DNA from: Litoribacter populi
Lineage (GTDB): Bacteria > Bacteroidota > Bacteroidia > Cytophagales > Cyclobacteriaceae
Direction: 5' to 3'
DNA: 64,000 nt
NCBI RefSeq assembly: GCF_007483685.1
Contig: NZ_VMKN01000001.1
Span: forward strand, 1,125,825 to 1,189,824
Of the stretch, positions 49,515 to 56,052 are shown one piece after another. A program made the translations under genes and the position numbers. The notes below the pieces were generated by a model. The model was not told the DNA's origin and made no database searches. It worked only from the letters and a program-made list of their open reading frames with translations. Position 1 is the stretch's first letter, and each line of letters begins with the position of its first letter.

Positions 49515-50360
49515 TCACTTCAAGTCCAAAATCTCCTTGAGTGGGGCTACAGCCTGTAGCTGCCGGGAAACAGCCTCAAAATCGTTCCCTTTAATATTTT
49601 CTTCCAGATTTTTGAGCTTGGCTATATAGCTCCCCAGCGCTTCCAGGACAAATTCTTTGTTTTCTTTAATAATTGGCGTCCACATTTCCGGAGAGCTTTT
49701 TGCCAGCCTTACAGTTGATGCAAAACCTGAACCTGCCATGTCAAATATATGGCGCTCGTCCTCCATTTTGTCCATCACTGTTTTGCCGAGCATGAAGGAA
49801 GAAATATGGGAGAGATGGGAAACAAAAGCCAGGTGCAGGTCATGCTCCTGTGGATCCATAAACCGGAGTTTCAGGTTCAGGGCTTCAAATAATTCATAGG
49901 CCTTGCCTTTGAGGTGCACGTCCGTTTTTTCCATTTCACAGATGATGAACACTTTTCCGTTGAGAAGATCCTCTTTGGCTGCTCTTGGCCCTGAATACTC
50001 CGTTCCCGCGATAGGGTGCCCTGCAAGAAACTGTGCCCTCTTTGGATGATCGGCCAAGCTTTGGCAGAGCCGGGCTTTGGTGGAACCCAAGTCAATTATA
50101 AGCGTTTCAGCACTTACCTTTTCCAATAATTCCTGAAGCAGCTGGGCCAGCGTATCCACAGGAGTGGCCAATAGCACTATGTCAGTCTCAACAGGTGGAG
50201 ACTCGACGGCTTCATCAATCAGTCCAAGGTATTTGGCCTCCTCCAAATGTTGATCGTTTTTGTCAAATCCGCTGATGTGGATTTCGGGAAATGCTTTCCG
50301 TATGGCCAGGGCAAATGATCCTCCGATAAGGCCAAGGCCGATGATGTGTATATGTTTCAT
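49515..50360 (-). CDS. tyrA: prephenate dehydrogenase
   Basis: TyrA oxidises prephenate to 4-hydroxyphenylpyruvate for tyrosine. The 281-residue protein opens with the NAD-binding HIIGLGLIGGSFALAIRKAF, followed by HPIAGTEYSGPRAAKEDLL around the catalytic region and the helical dimerisation domain. There is no fused chorismate mutase or ACT domain. It is the last gene of the six-gene aromatic operon, 32 bases after the aminotransferase. Confidence 0.95.
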   Translation of the reverse strand: MKHIHIIGLGLIGGSFALAIRKAFPEIHISGFDKNDQHLEEAKYLGLIDEAVESPPVETDIVLLATPVDTLAQLLQELLEKVSAETLIIDLGSTKARLCQSLADHPKRAQFLAGHPIAGTEYSGPRAAKEDLLNGKVFIICEMEKTDVHLKGKAYELFEALNLKLRFMDPQEHDLHLAFVSHLSHISSFMLGKTVMDKMEDERHIFDMAGSGFASTVRLAKSSPEMWTPIIKENKEFVLEALGSYIAKLKNLEENIKGNDFEAVSRQLQAVAPLKEILDLK

Positions 50361-50392: not shown

Positions 50393-51544
50393 TTAAGTGG
50401 TACATCTTCTGATAGCTTCCAATATTTGGTCTTCCGGTGTGCAAAGGGAAAACCTGATATATTCTTTTCCCCCGGAACCGAAAATACTGCCAGGAGCTAC
50501 AAATATTTGCTTTTCCTTCAAAAGCCAGTCCGTGAGCTCCAAGGCGTCAGTTCCCTGCGGTACTCTTGCCCATGCCCAGACAAACATGCCTGCGGTATCT
50601 TTTTCATAACTTAAGTTCAGCCTTTCAGCGAGTTTCCATACCAGTGCTCTCCTTGCCTCATATTGTTTGTTCTGCTCATCAAACCATTCCTCGCCCAAGT
50701 TCAAAGCAGCTACTGCACCTTTTTGAATTCCCAGAAACATCCCCGAATCCATATTGCTTTTGACTTGCAAAATTGCCTGCAGAAATTCTTTTTTTCCTGC
50801 CACCATTCCTACTCTCCATCCGGGAATGTTGAAGGTTTTACTCAGTGAATTGAGTTCAAGAGCTATTTCTTTGGCCCCTTCGACTGAAAGAATGCTTTTG
50901 GGCTCCGGGTTTAGGATAAAGCTGTAGGGATTGTCATGCACGATCAAGATTTCATGTTTTTGCCCAAAAGCAACCAGCTTTTCGAAAAGGTCTTCTGATG
51001 CCAAGGCTCCGGTGGGCATGTGGGGATAGTTGACCCACATGATTTTCACCTTGGACAGATCCTGCTTTCCCAAAGCATCAAAGTCCGGTTGCCAGTTGTT
51101 TTCTGCGCTTAGTTCGTAATTAAAGGGGTCAGCTTTCATCAATTTGCTGACTGAGCTATAGGTGGGATACCCGGGGTTTGGGATCAATACCTGGTCTCCC
51201 TCGTCCAAGAATGCCATGGATATGTGCAGGATGCCTTCCTTGGAACCCATTAGGGGCAAGATTTCCTCCGGGGAAAGATGGACACCAAAATGCCTTTGAT
51301 AAAATTCCGCAAAAGCAGTCCTCAGTTCAGGTGTGCCCTGATAGCGTTGGTATCCATGGGCGTTTTTCTCACCGGCGGAATCCTTCAATGCTTGGATGAT
51401 GTTGGGATGCGGGGGCAGATCAGGGCTTCCTATGCCCATTTCAATGATAGGCTGGCCTTCGGCAATCAGTTGCTTTACTTCCTTGAGCTTGGAAGAAAAG
51501 TAATATTCTTGGACATCCTGGAGCCTTTTGGAAAACCCTATCAT
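50393..51544 (-). CDS. class I/II PLP aminotransferase (aromatic pathway)
   Basis: The 383-residue protein is a fold-type I aminotransferase with the PLP lysine in LNSLSKTFNIPGWRVGMVAG and the substrate arginine in EYIRFSLCTP. Its place between pheA and tyrA suggests it transaminates phenylpyruvate/4-hydroxyphenylpyruvate or prephenate, but substrate specificity cannot be read from sequence. Its ATG overlaps the pheA stop by four bases, indicating translational coupling. Confidence 0.9.
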   Translation of the reverse strand: MIGFSKRLQDVQEYYFSSKLKEVKQLIAEGQPIIEMGIGSPDLPPHPNIIQALKDSAGEKNAHGYQRYQGTPELRTAFAEFYQRHFGVHLSPEEILPLMGSKEGILHISMAFLDEGDQVLIPNPGYPTYSSVSKLMKADPFNYELSAENNWQPDFDALGKQDLSKVKIMWVNYPHMPTGALASEDLFEKLVAFGQKHEILIVHDNPYSFILNPEPKSILSVEGAKEIALELNSLSKTFNIPGWRVGMVAGKKEFLQAILQVKSNMDSGMFLGIQKGAVAALNLGEEWFDEQNKQYEARRALVWKLAERLNLSYEKDTAGMFVWAWARVPQGTDALELTDWLLKEKQIFVAPGSIFGSGGKEYIRFSLCTPEDQILEAIRRCTT

Positions 51545-52359
51545 GGCTTTTTACTTAAATATTCCCCGAATATTTTCACCTCATTTCCGGCTGCCTGTAC
51601 TGACTCGACCGCTTCTAAATACTCAGAATAGTCTGTGATGATTGTGTCAATGAAAAAGGCATAATCCCAGGGTTTTTCCATCAAAGGGATAGACTGGATT
51701 TTGCTCAGGTCAAGGCCATGAATGGCCAAAATCTGCAGGAGCTTGGCCAAGGCTCCCTTTTCGTTTCTGATGATGATTTTCAGAGAGGCTTTGGTAGGTG
51801 GCTGATCCAACTGGGCTTTGTTTCTGCTCAGGATTATAAACCTGGTGAAATTATTGGGGACAGTTTGAATGTCGCTTGCAAGGATTTCAAGTCCATAAAT
51901 CTCTGCAGCTGTTTTACTCGCTATTGCACCATGATTTTGAAGCCGTTTTTCGGCGATTTTTTTGGCCACGCTGGCGGTGTCCTTTTCAGGAAGCAATTTG
52001 ATGTGGGGATGTTGGGCAAAGAATTTCCGGCATTGCAGCAGGGCCATTGGGTGGGACTCCACAATGCTGAGACTATCTAAATTTGAACCAGGGAGGGCCA
52101 TCAGGTTGTGGGAGATCGGTAGATAATGCTCCCCCCGGATATGGAGCCCATGCCTGTCGATCAGGTCGTAATTGGGCAAAATTGCTCCTGCAATGGAATT
52201 TTCTATTGCCATGACCCCAGAGGAAGCGACCCCGTCTTTCACTGCATGGGCAACTTCTTCAAAAGTGCCAAAACCTACAATGTCAGCCTCAGTACCAAAT
52301 TCTCTGAGCGCCACTTGGTGGTGAAAGGAGCCTGGGATTCCTTGGATTGCTGTTTTCAT
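51541..52359 (-). CDS. pheA: prephenate dehydratase
   Basis: PheA converts prephenate to phenylpyruvate. The 272-residue protein has the catalytic domain with IENSIAGAILPNYDLI, ESHPMALLQCRKFF and the TRF motif (NNFTRFIILSR), followed by a C-terminal ACT domain (SLKIIIRNEKGALAKLLQIL) that normally binds phenylalanine for feedback inhibition. Chorismate mutase is not fused here; it is fused to DAHP synthase in the same operon. It overlaps the aminotransferase gene by four bases. Confidence 0.96.
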   Translation of the reverse strand: MKTAIQGIPGSFHHQVALREFGTEADIVGFGTFEEVAHAVKDGVASSGVMAIENSIAGAILPNYDLIDRHGLHIRGEHYLPISHNLMALPGSNLDSLSIVESHPMALLQCRKFFAQHPHIKLLPEKDTASVAKKIAEKRLQNHGAIASKTAAEIYGLEILASDIQTVPNNFTRFIILSRNKAQLDQPPTKASLKIIIRNEKGALAKLLQILAIHGLDLSKIQSIPLMEKPWDYAFFIDTIITDYSEYLEAVESVQAAGNEVKIFGEYLSKKP

Positions 52360-52360
52360 T

Positions 52361-52498
52361 TTATTTCAGGGAAAGGAGCTGAGTAATATTTTCTGTAAGG
52401 ATTTTGGCCGTTTTGTCTTCTGTATGGTTCAATTCTAATTTTGGGAGAAATTCATATTGATCGTTGCTGTAATCAGTTCGACATGGTTCCAGAAACTA
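52361..52498 (-). pseudogene. relic reading frame overlapping the aroA end
   Basis: In a different frame from aroA, a 44-codon open segment without a start codon runs from within the last codons of aroA to a TAA one base before the pheA ATG. Its translation looks like a normal protein C-terminus (HTEDKTAKILTENITQLL, then SLK). It vaguely recalls the end of nucleotide kinases such as shikimate kinase, but this is a guess. It may be the tail of a deleted gene. Confidence 0.25.
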
Positions 52499-53670
52499 GG
52501 ATAGCTTTTATTCACGACATCAGGATCTTCAATGACCACATTGGTTTTGGTCACCAGGGGCATAAAAGCCATCGCCATCCGGTGATCATCATAAGTGGCA
52601 ATGGTGACTTCGTCGGGAATACTCACTGATGGGATAACCGTGAAGGCCCCGTCATTTCCTTCTTGGAGTTGGGCGTTGAATTTGGCTAATTCCGCCTGAA
52701 GGGCTGCAATCCGGTCGGTTTCTTTGATGCGCAGACTTTCCAGCCCGGTGAATTCGGTTTTCTGTCCAATAACGGCACAGGTGACGGCCACCGTTTGTGC
52801 CAGATCGGGGCAATGGGTGAAATCAAACTCCTGCAGACCCAATACCGGGATTTTGGTCAACTTTATCCCGTCTTCCTTGAATTCACTGGCCACACCGAGT
52901 TGGGCCATGATGTCCACTATTTTGGAATCTCCCTGCAAACTTTCCTTTTTTAGACCTTTCAGGAACAGTTCTCCACTTTCTGCGCAGGCCAAGAGGCTGT
53001 ACCAGTAGCTTGCACCTGACCAATCGCTTTCCACGGAATAGGTGGTAGGCCGGTAAGGCTGGGGTCCAATCGAGATCAGGTTTCCTTTCCAGGTATGGCT
53101 GATCCCGAATTGCTTCATCAGCTCAAGGGTCATCTCTATATATGTGCGGGATCCCACTTTCCCGGTCAGTTCCAGCTTCAAACCTTGGGGTAGGTGCGGG
53201 GCGATCATCAGGAGGGCAGAAATATATTGGCTGCTTACATCACCCCTGATGGTGATCAGATCTGTTTTTTGCTCTGAAAACCCATTGACTGCAAGCGGGG
53301 GATAGCCTTCAATTCCCAAATAATGGATCTCTGCCCCCAGCTGCTGCAGGGCTTCCACCAAAATTCCGATCGGGCGTTCGCACATCCTTGGGGTGCCGGT
53401 CATAACCTTTTGTTTGTTGGTAATGGCCGCATAAGCAGTAAGAAACCTCATGGTGGTGCCGGCGTCCAGCACGTCATAGATGGGGGGATCTTTTTTGAGG
53501 AGGCGGATCATCGTCTGCGTGTCCCGGGCTTCAGCCAGGTTCTCGATCTGGTTTTCACCGGAAGTGAGTGCGTCAATGATCAGTACCCGGTTGCTTTCGC
53601 TTTTGCTGGAAGGCAACGGGATAGTAGTTGATGGTATATTACTTTGTTGTGAAAGTCTAAGCTGGTTCAT
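52435..53670 (-). CDS. aroA: 3-phosphoshikimate 1-carboxyvinyltransferase (EPSP synthase)
   Basis: AroA joins shikimate 3-phosphate and phosphoenolpyruvate. The 411-residue protein shows PSSKSESNRVLIIDAL at the N-terminus, DAGTTMRFLTAY and GTPRMCERPI in the phosphate-binding region, RIKETDRI and DDHRMAMAF, and ends SYPSFWNHVELI plus about 14 extra residues. It starts within the last 14 bases of aroB. The 75 bases after it hold a possible relic frame. Confidence 0.96.
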   Translation of the reverse strand: MNQLRLSQQSNIPSTTIPLPSSKSESNRVLIIDALTSGENQIENLAEARDTQTMIRLLKKDPPIYDVLDAGTTMRFLTAYAAITNKQKVMTGTPRMCERPIGILVEALQQLGAEIHYLGIEGYPPLAVNGFSEQKTDLITIRGDVSSQYISALLMIAPHLPQGLKLELTGKVGSRTYIEMTLELMKQFGISHTWKGNLISIGPQPYRPTTYSVESDWSGASYWYSLLACAESGELFLKGLKKESLQGDSKIVDIMAQLGVASEFKEDGIKLTKIPVLGLQEFDFTHCPDLAQTVAVTCAVIGQKTEFTGLESLRIKETDRIAALQAELAKFNAQLQEGNDGAFTVIPSVSIPDEVTIATYDDHRMAMAFMPLVTKTNVVIEDPDVVNKSYPSFWNHVELITATINMNFSQN

Positions 53671-54703
53671 GCTTCAGTTCATTGTAAAATGCCAGGGCCG
53701 ATGTGATTTCTTCTCTGGTGATGGGGATATTGTACTCACACTCACCGATTCTTCTCAAAAGGGAGCAGTTTATGGTTTTGCCTTCGTTTTTCTTGTCCTG
53801 CAAACACAGGTCTGAAATGCTTTGGAAAGCTTCCGGTTTTATGGTAACCTTTCCGAAAACTGCGATAATCCTGTCGCAGATGGTGTCAAGGTCATCTTTT
53901 GGCAACCTCAGTTTCTGATGGGAAAGGTAGGCTTCGGCCACCATTCCTATAGCAATGGCTTCCCCATGTAGCAGGTGCTCAGCAGTGTCCAGATAAAAGG
54001 ATTCCACTGCATGTCCAATGGTATGGCCAAAATTCAGGATCTTCCGCAAACCCTCTTCCTTTGGGTCTTTTTCAACCACCTCTTTTTTGATGGAAACGGA
54101 TTTCTCTATAATATCCTTCCATGGCTGAGTCTCCCACTTTTCAGTTTTGAGACAATGAAAGTAATTCTCACTCTTAATCAGGCCGTGCTTGAGCACCTCA
54201 GCATATCCGCTCCTGAGCTCGCGCCGGGGGAGGGTTTGGAGGAACTCTTCAGAGATCACCACGGTAAGAGGCTCGGCGAATACACCCAGATGGTTTTTGA
54301 AGCCCATGAAATCAATTCCCAGTTTCCCTCCGACGCTGGCGTCCACTTGTGACAACAGGGTTGTGGGGATGTTGATGAAGCGCATGCCCCTTTTGAAGGT
54401 GCTGGCGCAAAAACCTCCCATGTCCCCTGTGACACCTCCGCCCAGATTTATGATGAGGGATTTCCGGTCAAAATCATTCTCAGTCATCCATGTCCAGATT
54501 TTAGTGCAGGTGTACAGGGTTTTGTTAGCCTCGCCGGCCTGAAAGGTGAAAGTCAGGTGATCCGGAAGTTTGTCGGCAAGCAAGGGATAGCAATAGTCGA
54601 AACTGTTGCTATCGGTAATGAAGCCCAACTTTGAATAAGCCTGCTTGCTTAAAAAGCCGCTGAGCCTTTCAGCTATCTTTTCTGAGAAAATGATTGATTC
54701 CAA
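53657..54703 (-). CDS. aroB: 3-dehydroquinate synthase
   Basis: AroB cyclises DAHP to 3-dehydroquinate using NAD and a divalent metal. The 348-residue protein has GGGVTGDMGGFCASTFKRGM, the metal-binding NFGHTIGHAVES and LLHGEAIAIGMVAEAYLS. It follows the DAHP synthase gene by 47 bases and overlaps aroA by 14 bases. Confidence 0.96.
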   Translation of the reverse strand: MESIIFSEKIAERLSGFLSKQAYSKLGFITDSNSFDYCYPLLADKLPDHLTFTFQAGEANKTLYTCTKIWTWMTENDFDRKSLIINLGGGVTGDMGGFCASTFKRGMRFINIPTTLLSQVDASVGGKLGIDFMGFKNHLGVFAEPLTVVISEEFLQTLPRRELRSGYAEVLKHGLIKSENYFHCLKTEKWETQPWKDIIEKSVSIKKEVVEKDPKEEGLRKILNFGHTIGHAVESFYLDTAEHLLHGEAIAIGMVAEAYLSHQKLRLPKDDLDTICDRIIAVFGKVTIKPEAFQSISDLCLQDKKNEGKTINCSLLRRIGECEYNIPITREEITSALAFYNELKHEPA

Positions 54704-54750: not shown

Positions 54751-55848
54751 TTATTTCACGATTTTCACTTGCTCTCTCAACTGCTTTTCCTGCCTTTTTA
54801 CAGATTCTTCATGAATGGTGAAAAGAAGCTCTTTCATGAATTTCTCACCCAGGTTTTTTGAAACGCCTTTTTGGGTTCTAGAATCCATTACTTGCTTCCA
54901 TCTCTCGGATTGGAACACACTTAGGTGGTTTTCTCTTTTATGCGCTCCGATTTGCTCAATTACAGCGAACCTTTCAGCGAGAATGTCCAGGAGCTGATCA
55001 TCAAGGTGGTCTACTGCCGCTCTGAGGTCATGAAGTTTTTCACTTGGCTGTACTTCTTCCAAAGGGGTCTTGAAATCCAGTTGCTGCAGGATCTGCTTGA
55101 GCTGTGCCGGGGTGACCTGCTGTTTGGCGTCAGACCAGGCTTTGTCCGGGTCGTGGTGGGTTTCGATCATCAAACCGTCCAGACCGAAGTTGAGTGCGCG
55201 CTGGGATGTTTCCAGGATGCCGTCCCTTTTACCTACTATATGGCTAGGGTCATTGATGACCTGCATGCCTTTCCATTCTCTTTTCAGGTGGATAGGCATG
55301 GACCAGTTTGGTTTGTTCCTGAACCTTTTGTCGTACGCATCACTGAATCCACGGTGGATGGCGGCCAATTTGTTGATGCCCACGGCATGCAGTCTTTCCA
55401 AAGCTCCGATCCATAGCTGGAGGTCGGGGTTCATGGGGTTTTTGACCATAACGGGAATGTCCGTGCCTCTCAGCGCCTCGGCAATTTCCTGCACAGCGAA
55501 AGGATTGACAGTCGTCCTGGCGCCGATCCAGAGCACATCTACCTTGTGCTTGAGGGCCATTTCCACGTGGGCTGCATTGCCCACCTCGGTGGTGATGGGG
55601 ACATTGAGGTGGTGACGGGCGATTTCCATCCATTTGAGGCCTTCCTCACCTATGCCTTCGAAGCTTCCCGGTCTGGTGCGGGGTTTCCAGATGCCAGCTC
55701 TGAACAGGGAGGGCAATACATTTTCCTCTTTCATAGCCAGACATACTTTTTCAATCTGTCCCGGGCTTTCTGCGCTGCAGGGGCCGGCGATGATCAATTG
55801 GTTGGTGAGGTTCAAACCCCATTCGGTTGATTGTAAGTGATTTTTCAT
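54751..55848 (-). CDS. bifunctional DAHP synthase / chorismate mutase
   Basis: The N-terminal ~265 residues are a DAHP synthase of the beta (KDO8PS-like) type: IAGPCSAESPGQI, RAGIWKPRTRPGSFEG, LWIGARTTVNPFAVQEIAEA and ETHHDPDKAWSDAKQQ. It condenses PEP and erythrose 4-phosphate. Residues ~270-360 form a chorismate mutase AroQ domain (AAVDHLDDQLLDILAERFAV, then KRE). This pairs the first step of the aromatic pathway with the branch to Phe and Tyr in one chain. It is the first structural gene of the operon, behind an attenuator-like leader. Confidence 0.95.
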   Translation of the reverse strand: MKNHLQSTEWGLNLTNQLIIAGPCSAESPGQIEKVCLAMKEENVLPSLFRAGIWKPRTRPGSFEGIGEEGLKWMEIARHHLNVPITTEVGNAAHVEMALKHKVDVLWIGARTTVNPFAVQEIAEALRGTDIPVMVKNPMNPDLQLWIGALERLHAVGINKLAAIHRGFSDAYDKRFRNKPNWSMPIHLKREWKGMQVINDPSHIVGKRDGILETSQRALNFGLDGLMIETHHDPDKAWSDAKQQVTPAQLKQILQQLDFKTPLEEVQPSEKLHDLRAAVDHLDDQLLDILAERFAVIEQIGAHKRENHLSVFQSERWKQVMDSRTQKGVSKNLGEKFMKELLFTIHEESVKRQEKQLREQVKIVK

Positions 55849-55870: not shown

Positions 55871-55900
55871 AAAAGCCCGGTTCTTGCGAACCGGGCTTTT
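55871..55900 (-). terminator. intrinsic terminator in the leader of the aromatic operon (attenuator)
   Basis: On the minus strand AAAAGCCCGGTTC, loop GCAA and GAACCGGGCTTTT make a perfect 13-bp stem, followed by TCTATTTT. It lies 21 bases after the leader peptide stop and 22 bases before the first structural ATG, so full termination would silence the operon. Confidence 0.88.
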
Positions 55901-56006
55901 GGTTTGTAAATATCTTGAAGTTTATTTTTCCACTAGACAATACGCAGCTCCGATTCGACCTTGAGGGCGAAAATAAAAATAGAAGAAGCTAAAATATAGT
56001 GCTGCG
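55887..56006 (-). promoter_or_regulatory. Phe/Tyr attenuator pairing segments
   Basis: Segment 1 (CGCAGC, 56006-56001) complements GCTGCG in segment 2 (55948-55943). Segment 2 also contains CGAATCGGAGC (55957-55947), which can pair over ten positions (one A bulge, one G-U) with GCCCGGTTCG (55896-55887), the 5' arm of the terminator. The Phe/Tyr codon run lies between segments 1 and 2, so a stalled ribosome would mask 1 and favour antitermination. The mechanism is inferred from sequence. Confidence 0.7.
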
Positions 56007-56017
56007 AATAATAACAT
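55922..56017 (-). CDS. leader peptide of the aromatic operon, Phe/Tyr-rich
   Basis: A 31-codon frame from ATG to TAA lies between a consensus promoter and the terminator. Residues 8-16 read YFSFFYFYF, eight aromatic residues out of nine; in total there are six Phe and four Tyr and no Trp. This is the design of a ribosome-stalling leader for phenylalanine and tyrosine supply. The promoter's -7 box ends four bases before the ATG, so the message has almost no 5' leader. The remainder of the peptide (RPQGRIGAAYCLVEK) is not aromatic and covers segment 2 of the attenuator. The peptide probably has no role beyond translation itself. Confidence 0.75.
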   Translation of the reverse strand: MLLFAALYFSFFYFYFRPQGRIGAAYCLVEK

Positions 56018-56021
56018 GTTT

Positions 56022-56052
56022 CAAATGTAACGGATGTATTATTTAAAACAAA
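56022..56052 (-). promoter_or_regulatory. predicted promoter of the aromatic operon
   Basis: Minus-strand TTTG (56052-56049), 19 bases, then TACATTTG (56029-56022) match the consensus completely. Transcription should start at or within a few bases of the leader peptide ATG at 56017. Confidence 0.8.

Follow-up and report, generated by a model that had tools for sequence, protein, structure and literature searches.

A putative Phe/Tyr-sensing leader peptide attenuator before the aromatic amino acid operon of Litoribacter populi and related Cyclobacteriaceae

The aromatic amino acid operon and its leader region

The window (the whole 64,000-nucleotide stretch of the Litoribacter populi genome analysed here) carries on its minus strand an aromatic amino acid operon that begins with a DAHP synthase-chorismate mutase gene and extends to tyrA (Table 1). 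The product of the first gene exceeded the cut-offs for both of its domains and fell below that of the NCBIfam model for the fusion (174 vs 279). The preliminary description held that the operon makes exactly the precursors of Phe and Tyr, and genes specific to these amino acids are indeed present; "exactly" was too narrow, since aroB and aroA of the common pathway are also carried. A second DAHP synthase-chorismate mutase gene (L002) lies about 68 kb away in the same genome and is 45% identical, and in three loci of relatives (L035, L036, and L038) a second gene of this kind was observed approximately 0.4-0.8 kb upstream of the leader-bearing one.

Upstream of the operon there is a short leader frame of 31 codons with a run of codons for the end products of the pathway, in which eight of codons 8-16 encode Phe or Tyr, three of them Tyr, as had been described. 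An intrinsic terminator of 13 pairs follows, ending 22 bases before the first gene, and a terminator between leader frame and first gene is also present in relatives. The proposed alternative pairings were located where the preliminary description placed them: segment 1 (CGCAGC) pairs with GCTGCG in the protector helix (1:2), and CGAATCGGAGC (55957-55947) within segment 2 pairs with segment 3, GCCCGGTTCG, in the antiterminator (2:3). Folding of the leader RNA, which had been suggested as a check, gave z = -3.58, and none of 200 shuffled sequences was equally stable. The alanine dehydrogenase gene upstream has its own terminator-like site at 56210-56187, and for this reason the leader probably marks the start of a separate transcript.

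The "consensus promoter" claimed in front of the leader exists in the Bacteroidota sense only, as a scan for sigma-70 elements (TTGACA/TATAAT) returned no site at that position. The pattern TTTG-N19-TAnnTTTG has five matches in the window against 0.38 expected.

Table 1. Features of the leader region and the downstream operon (window coordinates).
Feature	Position	Strand	Basis or remark
Promoter, Bacteroidota sigma-A type, TTTG-N19-TACATTTG	56022..56052	-	Pattern scan and relatives; ends 4 nt 5' of leader ATG
Leader peptide ORF, 31 codons, predicted leaderless (+1 = A of ATG)	55922..56017	-	Reads MLLFAALYFSFFYFYFRPQGRIGAAYCLVEK
Segment 1, CGCAGC, codons 4-6	56001..56006	-	Pairs with GCTGCG, 55943-55948
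Stall codons 8-16 (Y F S F F Y F Y F)	55970..55996	-	ORF reading and alignment of relatives
Segment 2, CGAATCGGAGCTGCG, common to protector (1:2) and antiterminator (2:3)	55943..55957	-	Starts 12 nt past codon 16
Segment 3, GCCCGGTTCG, 5' arm of terminator	55887..55896	-	Pairs with CGAATCGGAGC
Intrinsic terminator (3:4), 13 pairs, then U-rich tail	55871..55900	-	Terminator scan and folding
DAHP synthase-chorismate mutase, first operon gene	54751..55848	-	PF00793 and PF01817 over cut-off
aroB, 3-dehydroquinate synthase	53657..54703	-	TIGR01357 over cut-off
aroA, EPSP synthase	52435..53670	-	TIGR01356 over cut-off
pheA, prephenate dehydratase	51541..52359	-	PF00800 over cut-off
Aminotransferase class I/II	50393..51544	-	PF00155 over cut-off
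tyrA, prephenate dehydrogenase	49515..50360	-	NF006307 over cut-off

Conservation of the leader in Cyclobacteriaceae

Among the 31 DAHP synthase loci read, the leader was found in 11 (L001, L005-L014), and no Phe/Tyr leader was seen before the paralogue of this genome (L002) or at the more distant L015-L033. It also stands directly before the DAHP synthase gene in nine of the best 80 named loci listed (L034-L041 and L045). A covariance model (R1) built from 15 leaders matched 199 of the 390 genomes of the family, and 43 of 84 genera, at E <= 0.01, with at least 123 matches of E < 1e-14 among the matches listed; when 90 matches, all with E < 2e-7, were fetched, 89 contained a Phe/Tyr leader. 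Altogether, an ATG-started leader rich in Phe, Tyr, or Trp occurs in 106 of 110 loci, several of which are one genome fetched twice, and L225, L230, and L235 carry GTG-started leaders at the same 4-nt distance from the promoter box. Locus L215 (G061:C21) scored 99.4 bits with model R1, yet no Phe/Tyr-rich frame was found there, and its leader has possibly decayed or shifted frame.

The 31-codon leaders, 70 in number and 60 of them distinct, were compared codon by codon. Across the 60 distinct sequences the first-position columns of codons 8-16 show zero variation; codon 10 is Ser or Thr, with one Ile, while changes in the other codons of the run are synonymous or exchange Phe, Tyr, and Trp among themselves, apart from one Ser. 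Because the leaders were gathered by their Phe/Tyr/Trp-rich frames, the conservation of aromatic residues is partly built in, which does not apply to third-position changes; the telling point is that the leader variation falls in synonymous third positions. The frame and its aromatic codons are thus both kept at the amino acid level in these relatives, in agreement with what the preliminary description would predict.

The position of the promoter is nearly invariant. In 94 of 106 Cyclobacteriaceae leaders (74 distinct upstream sequences) the 3' end of the box TAnnTTT(G/A) lies exactly 4 nt upstream of the leader ATG, a gap that occurs at just 12 of 10,109 other ATGs in the same loci. In these 94 leaders the base at -1 is C in 89, and a C preceding A resembles a pyrimidine-purine initiator; the TTTG element is kept at N19 in 73 and at N18-20 in 86. 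The 12 remaining leaders have gaps of 5 nt (n = 4), of 3, 6, 7, 8, and 29 nt (n = 1 each), or no box (n = 3); the 7-nt gap belongs to L214, whose start was assigned too early, and the 29-nt gap to L045. Leaderless starts as a genome-wide habit were considered and rejected, as the full promoter-gap-ATG pattern has three genomic sites vs four in a reversed control. The available part of a study on Flavobacterium psychrophilum maps the same box to positions -12 to -5 (PMC9723704), which, together with the 4-nt gap, would place +1 on the A of the leader ATG. By this analogy, the leader mRNA of Cyclobacteriaceae appears to start at the A of the AUG and would encode a leaderless leader peptide. Such a start at the start codon of the peptide is unusual, and the same source reports leaderless mRNAs at 5.5% in F. 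psychrophilum (PMC9723704).

Whether the pairings are kept through sequence change was assessed by comparing duplex energies for segments that occur together in one leader with those for segments exchanged between 13 sequence clusters; the swap draws share sequences and all counts are given without correction for kinship. For 1:2 the cognate mean was -11.16 vs -7.80 kcal/mol after swapping, with 0 of 2000 swaps as favourable, and for 2:3 it was -12.66 vs -10.45 kcal/mol, with 2 of 2000 swaps as favourable. Therefore, on average both stems keep pairing as sequences change, as the suggested search for covarying stems should reveal, and the antiterminator, which is exclusive with the terminator, is among the conserved elements. 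Individual clusters differ: in clusters F, G, and L the cognate 1:2 does not outdo swapped pairs, and in C, I, and K it does so weakly, while 2:3 shows no clear gain in H2 and K, little or none in J, and hardly any in F. Counting exact 5-mers in the 31-codon leaders (3 of 60 have other 5-mers and were excluded), ACAGC is present in 16 of 22 leaders with GCTGT vs 3 of 35 with GCTGC (Fisher p 8e-7, uncorrected for kinship). The exact partner is missing from some leaders (GCAGC from 10 of the 35 with GCTGC, ACAGC from 6 of the 22 with GCTGT), GCAGC alone does not discriminate (25/35 vs 15/22), and in many leaders GCAG and ACAG occur together. A need for 1:2 restricted to leaders whose stop codon is far past segment 2 found weak support (Spearman -0.37) and was dropped as an explanation, because the effect of distance cannot be separated from that of clade and 1:2 is also seen in family leaders where the distance is short.

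Related leaders in Bacteroidota and at other operons

A further 72 named loci (L042-L113), nearly all labelled Bacteroidota, were scanned outside long frames for a short Phe/Tyr-rich frame followed by a terminator. This returned 48 matches in 47 loci; every one shares the strand of the DAHP synthase gene, and the opposite strand has none. Of 190 residue pairs Phe plus Tyr gave the most matches, and no pair exceeded five matches on the opposite strand; the runner-up pairs all include Phe and would largely reflect the same leaders. The gene that follows is pheA in 45 loci, an aminotransferase gene in L075, and the DAHP synthase gene in L045. By reading, only L087 and L111 have pheA with room upstream and lack a match, while in the remaining 23 loci pheA was cut off or undetected. 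Three metagenome bins labelled Halobacteriovorax, Legionellaceae, and Rhodobacteraceae (L100, L101, and L107) carry the same type of DAHP synthase gene, L101 and L107 together with pheA and a Phe/Tyr leader; these bins are probably mislabelled.

In 46 pheA-type leaders from 33 clusters the antiterminator is again specific to its own partner (cognate -12.77 vs swapped -8.40, 0 of 1000 swaps as favourable), and 1:2 is not (94 of 1000 swaps as favourable). The exact TAnnTTTG box occurs within 60 nt in 11 of these leaders, separated from the start codon by 12-45 nt and in no case by 4 nt, and was not found within that distance in the other 35.

Leader peptides were also found, by reading, before other amino acid operons of relatives, mostly of the same family: His runs before hisG in 14 of 18 loci and Trp runs before trpE in 16 of 19 full-length trpE loci. 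This genome has MNNPKQHIYTCTFSVASASVHHFHHSS before hisG and MFLNQTQYWWHHHLLSKEGDRHAIPNSI before trpE, and at both kinds of leader the promoter gaps vary. These His and Trp leaders suggest that control by leader peptides is a habit in these bacteria, as it seems from the loci read. No convincing Leu leader was found before leuA in 22 loci, Leu-rich frames being present in L171 and L172. Many of the hisG leaders in L118, L120, L121, L126, L127, L128, L130, L133, and L134 end in HHSS or similar; in several of the hisG leaders a GAGGA just past the stop codon could, by eye, pair with the Ser codon sequence TCCTC, and the leaders with HHSS ends are not followed by a clear T-tract terminator and perhaps represent a different kind of attenuator. 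In addition, a SAM-II riboswitch over the Rfam cut-off was observed at L053:809-869 (minus strand), approximately 2 kb from the aromatic operon.

Proposed mechanism, alternative readings and known systems

Judging from its sequence features, the leader region is very probably a ribosome-mediated transcription attenuator that senses charged tRNA-Phe and tRNA-Tyr. The elements and how far they are conserved are shown by the analysis; the order of events that follows, and the response to Phe and Tyr, are inferred. Transcription would begin at the leader AUG or one base to either side and a ribosome would load on the emerging 5' end of the leaderless RNA. If Phe or Tyr is short, the ribosome would stall in codons 8-16, leaving segment 2 free to pair with segment 3, so that the terminator is blocked and the operon transcribed. 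If both amino acids are plentiful, the ribosome would advance onto segment 2 and mask it as segment 3 emerges, and once the ribosome is done, segment 1 could capture segment 2; through masking or 1:2 capture, 3:4 would form and transcription would stop before the DAHP synthase gene.

Masking by the ribosome was modelled on RNA made up to segment 3, with an assumed footprint from 14 nt upstream to 16 nt downstream of the first P-site base, in 51 of the 60 distinct 31-codon leaders (nine with a weakly called terminator were excluded). For every A-site position from codon 1 to codon 16, 2:3 is free in 51/51 leaders, and the claim that stall codons placed between segments 1 and 2 would free segment 2 is borne out in the model for stalls at codons 8-16. 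The antiterminator remains free in 49 leaders at codon 17, in 20 at codon 18, and in at most one at codons 19-28, in line with onward translation masking it. The model thereby suggests that the Phe/Tyr run ends where a stall still frees the antiterminator. For three groups of leaders the distance from the last Phe/Tyr codon to segment 2 has the same median, 13 nt: the RIG-type, mostly 31 codons long (n = 58), further leaders from the family set (n = 25), and the pheA-type (n = 46). This value may be one too many since the arms were cut near mid-stem (12 nt by sequence in this genome); 12-13 nt is about a ribosome's reach. At codons 29-32 segment 2 becomes accessible once more (40, 47, 50, and 48 of 51 leaders, the last at the stop codon), and at equilibrium without a ribosome 2:3 on average beats 1:2 (10.48 vs 1.22 pairs, 51 leaders), which together imply that the termination branch rests on timing. 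Under plenty, the model would make termination depend on this timing and on 1:2 forming before segment 3 emerges. In the leader of this genome 1:2 wins when no ribosome is present and when one has reached the stop codon, and does not at codon 31.

Another reading concerns the role of 1:2. An attenuator with only two states, in which masking of segment 2 by the ribosome is all that counts and 1:2 is a by-product, would agree with the equilibrium average in 31-codon leaders, with the clusters F, G, and L that have no specific 1:2, and with the pheA-type leaders, where only 2:3 is specific. We nevertheless regard it as unlikely, considering that 1:2 is cognate-specific over all family clusters and covaries in the 31-codon leaders, and that the renewed exposure of segment 2 at their stop codon calls for a protector. 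It is also doubtful that Phe alone is sensed in practice and the Tyr codons are passive: the Phe-Tyr-Phe leader aroR of Corynebacterium glutamicum is reported, in the available part of the source, to respond to Phe and not to Tyr (PMC11802643), whereas here both residues are widely mixed across leaders, the run of this genome includes several Tyr codons, and a stall at any codon of the run leaves 2:3 free. That the frame yields a small protein with a function of its own, followed by an ordinary terminator hairpin, is very improbable; the C-terminal part around RIGAAYCLVK is kept in 31-codon leaders, but this part holds the pairing segments, and leaders of other types mostly have another C-terminus while pairing is kept on average. 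A riboswitch or other element read by a ligand or protein is scarcely credible even with a 14-nt stretch (TCGAATCGGAGCTG) invariant in 15 aligned leaders and a hit to the Bacteroides sRNA family BTnc231 on the leader strand (25.7 bits, E 0.066, far below the cut-off of 80.4), because other clusters swap that stretch for other sequences, its two pairing duties explain it, and neither the window site nor the leaders in 11 related loci reached the gathering threshold of any Rfam family (Trp_leader 23.3 vs cut-off 41 on the opposite strand, Thr_leader 20.4 vs 55 on the leader strand).

It is conceivable, with chances somewhat short of even, that one Phe/Tyr attenuator exists throughout Bacteroidota and that Cyclobacteriaceae rebuilt it by moving it from pheA to the DAHP synthase gene, locking the start codon on the transcription start and adding a protector helix that reaches the 5' end and may also shut off initiation, the direction of change being a guess. 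Under such a history the present position of the stop codon, past segment 2, would be the reason for the added helix, and the locked start codon would let ribosome and polymerase begin from the same base.

Some attenuators were reportedly predicted in Bacteroidetes/Chlorobi in the comparative study of Vitreschak et al. in 2004. The main text of PMC2965389 has no mention of Bacteroid-, Flavobacter-, Cytophaga, Phe, or pheA. In the available text on Flavobacteriaceae, structured 5' elements kept in other genera and without Rfam matches are reported before pheA and hisG, and "strong clues" for leader peptide attenuation before amino acid operons are noted in F. psychrophilum (PMC9723704). The preliminary description knew of no mixed Phe/Tyr leader in Cytophagales, a novelty that has to be narrowed, as leaders of the same kind stand before pheA in many Bacteroidota and a mixed leader before a DAHP synthase gene is known from C. 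glutamicum aroR; the Cyclobacteriaceae form, its covariation, the fixed promoter-ATG spacing, and the connection with pheA leaders elsewhere in the phylum did not turn up in the literature, mainly open-access, that was searched.

An attenuator of this type needs a ribosome close behind the polymerase, and Bacteroidota are described as lacking Shine-Dalgarno sequences (PMC9723704, available part). Conservation across the phylum would for that reason be strong indirect evidence of transcription-translation coupling without Shine-Dalgarno sequences. Moreover, the nearly invariant 4-nt gap between promoter and ATG offers a natural test of leaderless initiation as a means of keeping ribosome and polymerase in step.

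The kind of attenuator itself is already known from E. coli pheL, C. glutamicum aroR, and the leaderless ilvBNC leader. The phe leader of E. coli, a gammaproteobacterium, has a Shine-Dalgarno site and Phe codons only. As is proposed for the leader described here, expression depends on charged tRNA: the leader peptide before pheA ties expression to charged tRNA-Phe, and a pheST attenuator is described along with it (PMC11802643, available part). In the accessible portions of two sources, aroR lies before aroF, a DAHP synthase gene, and is described as a Phe/Tyr leader peptide with ribosome stalling (PMC4046766, PMC11802643); it differs in belonging to Actinobacteria and having Phe-Tyr-Phe only, and the likeness drawn here is one of description. 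The pheA element of Flavobacteriaceae shares phylum and gene with the related leaders found here, although the available text describes it without sequence, codons, or alternative pairing (PMC9723704), and those pheA leaders, unlike the Cyclobacteriaceae ones, have no exact box at the 4-nt gap. For the trpL attenuator of Sinorhizobium meliloti, the 5' end of the RNA is reported to coincide with the ATG of the leader ORF, as predicted here, in an alphaproteobacterium and for the sensing of Trp (PMC7298713, available part). Finally, the three-hairpin ilvBNC attenuator of C. glutamicum, which serves a branched-chain amino acid operon in another phylum, has a leaderless leader whose first hairpin is described, in the part of the source available, as an anti-antiterminator that also blocks initiation (PMC11857589), as the 1:2 helix might do in Cyclobacteriaceae.
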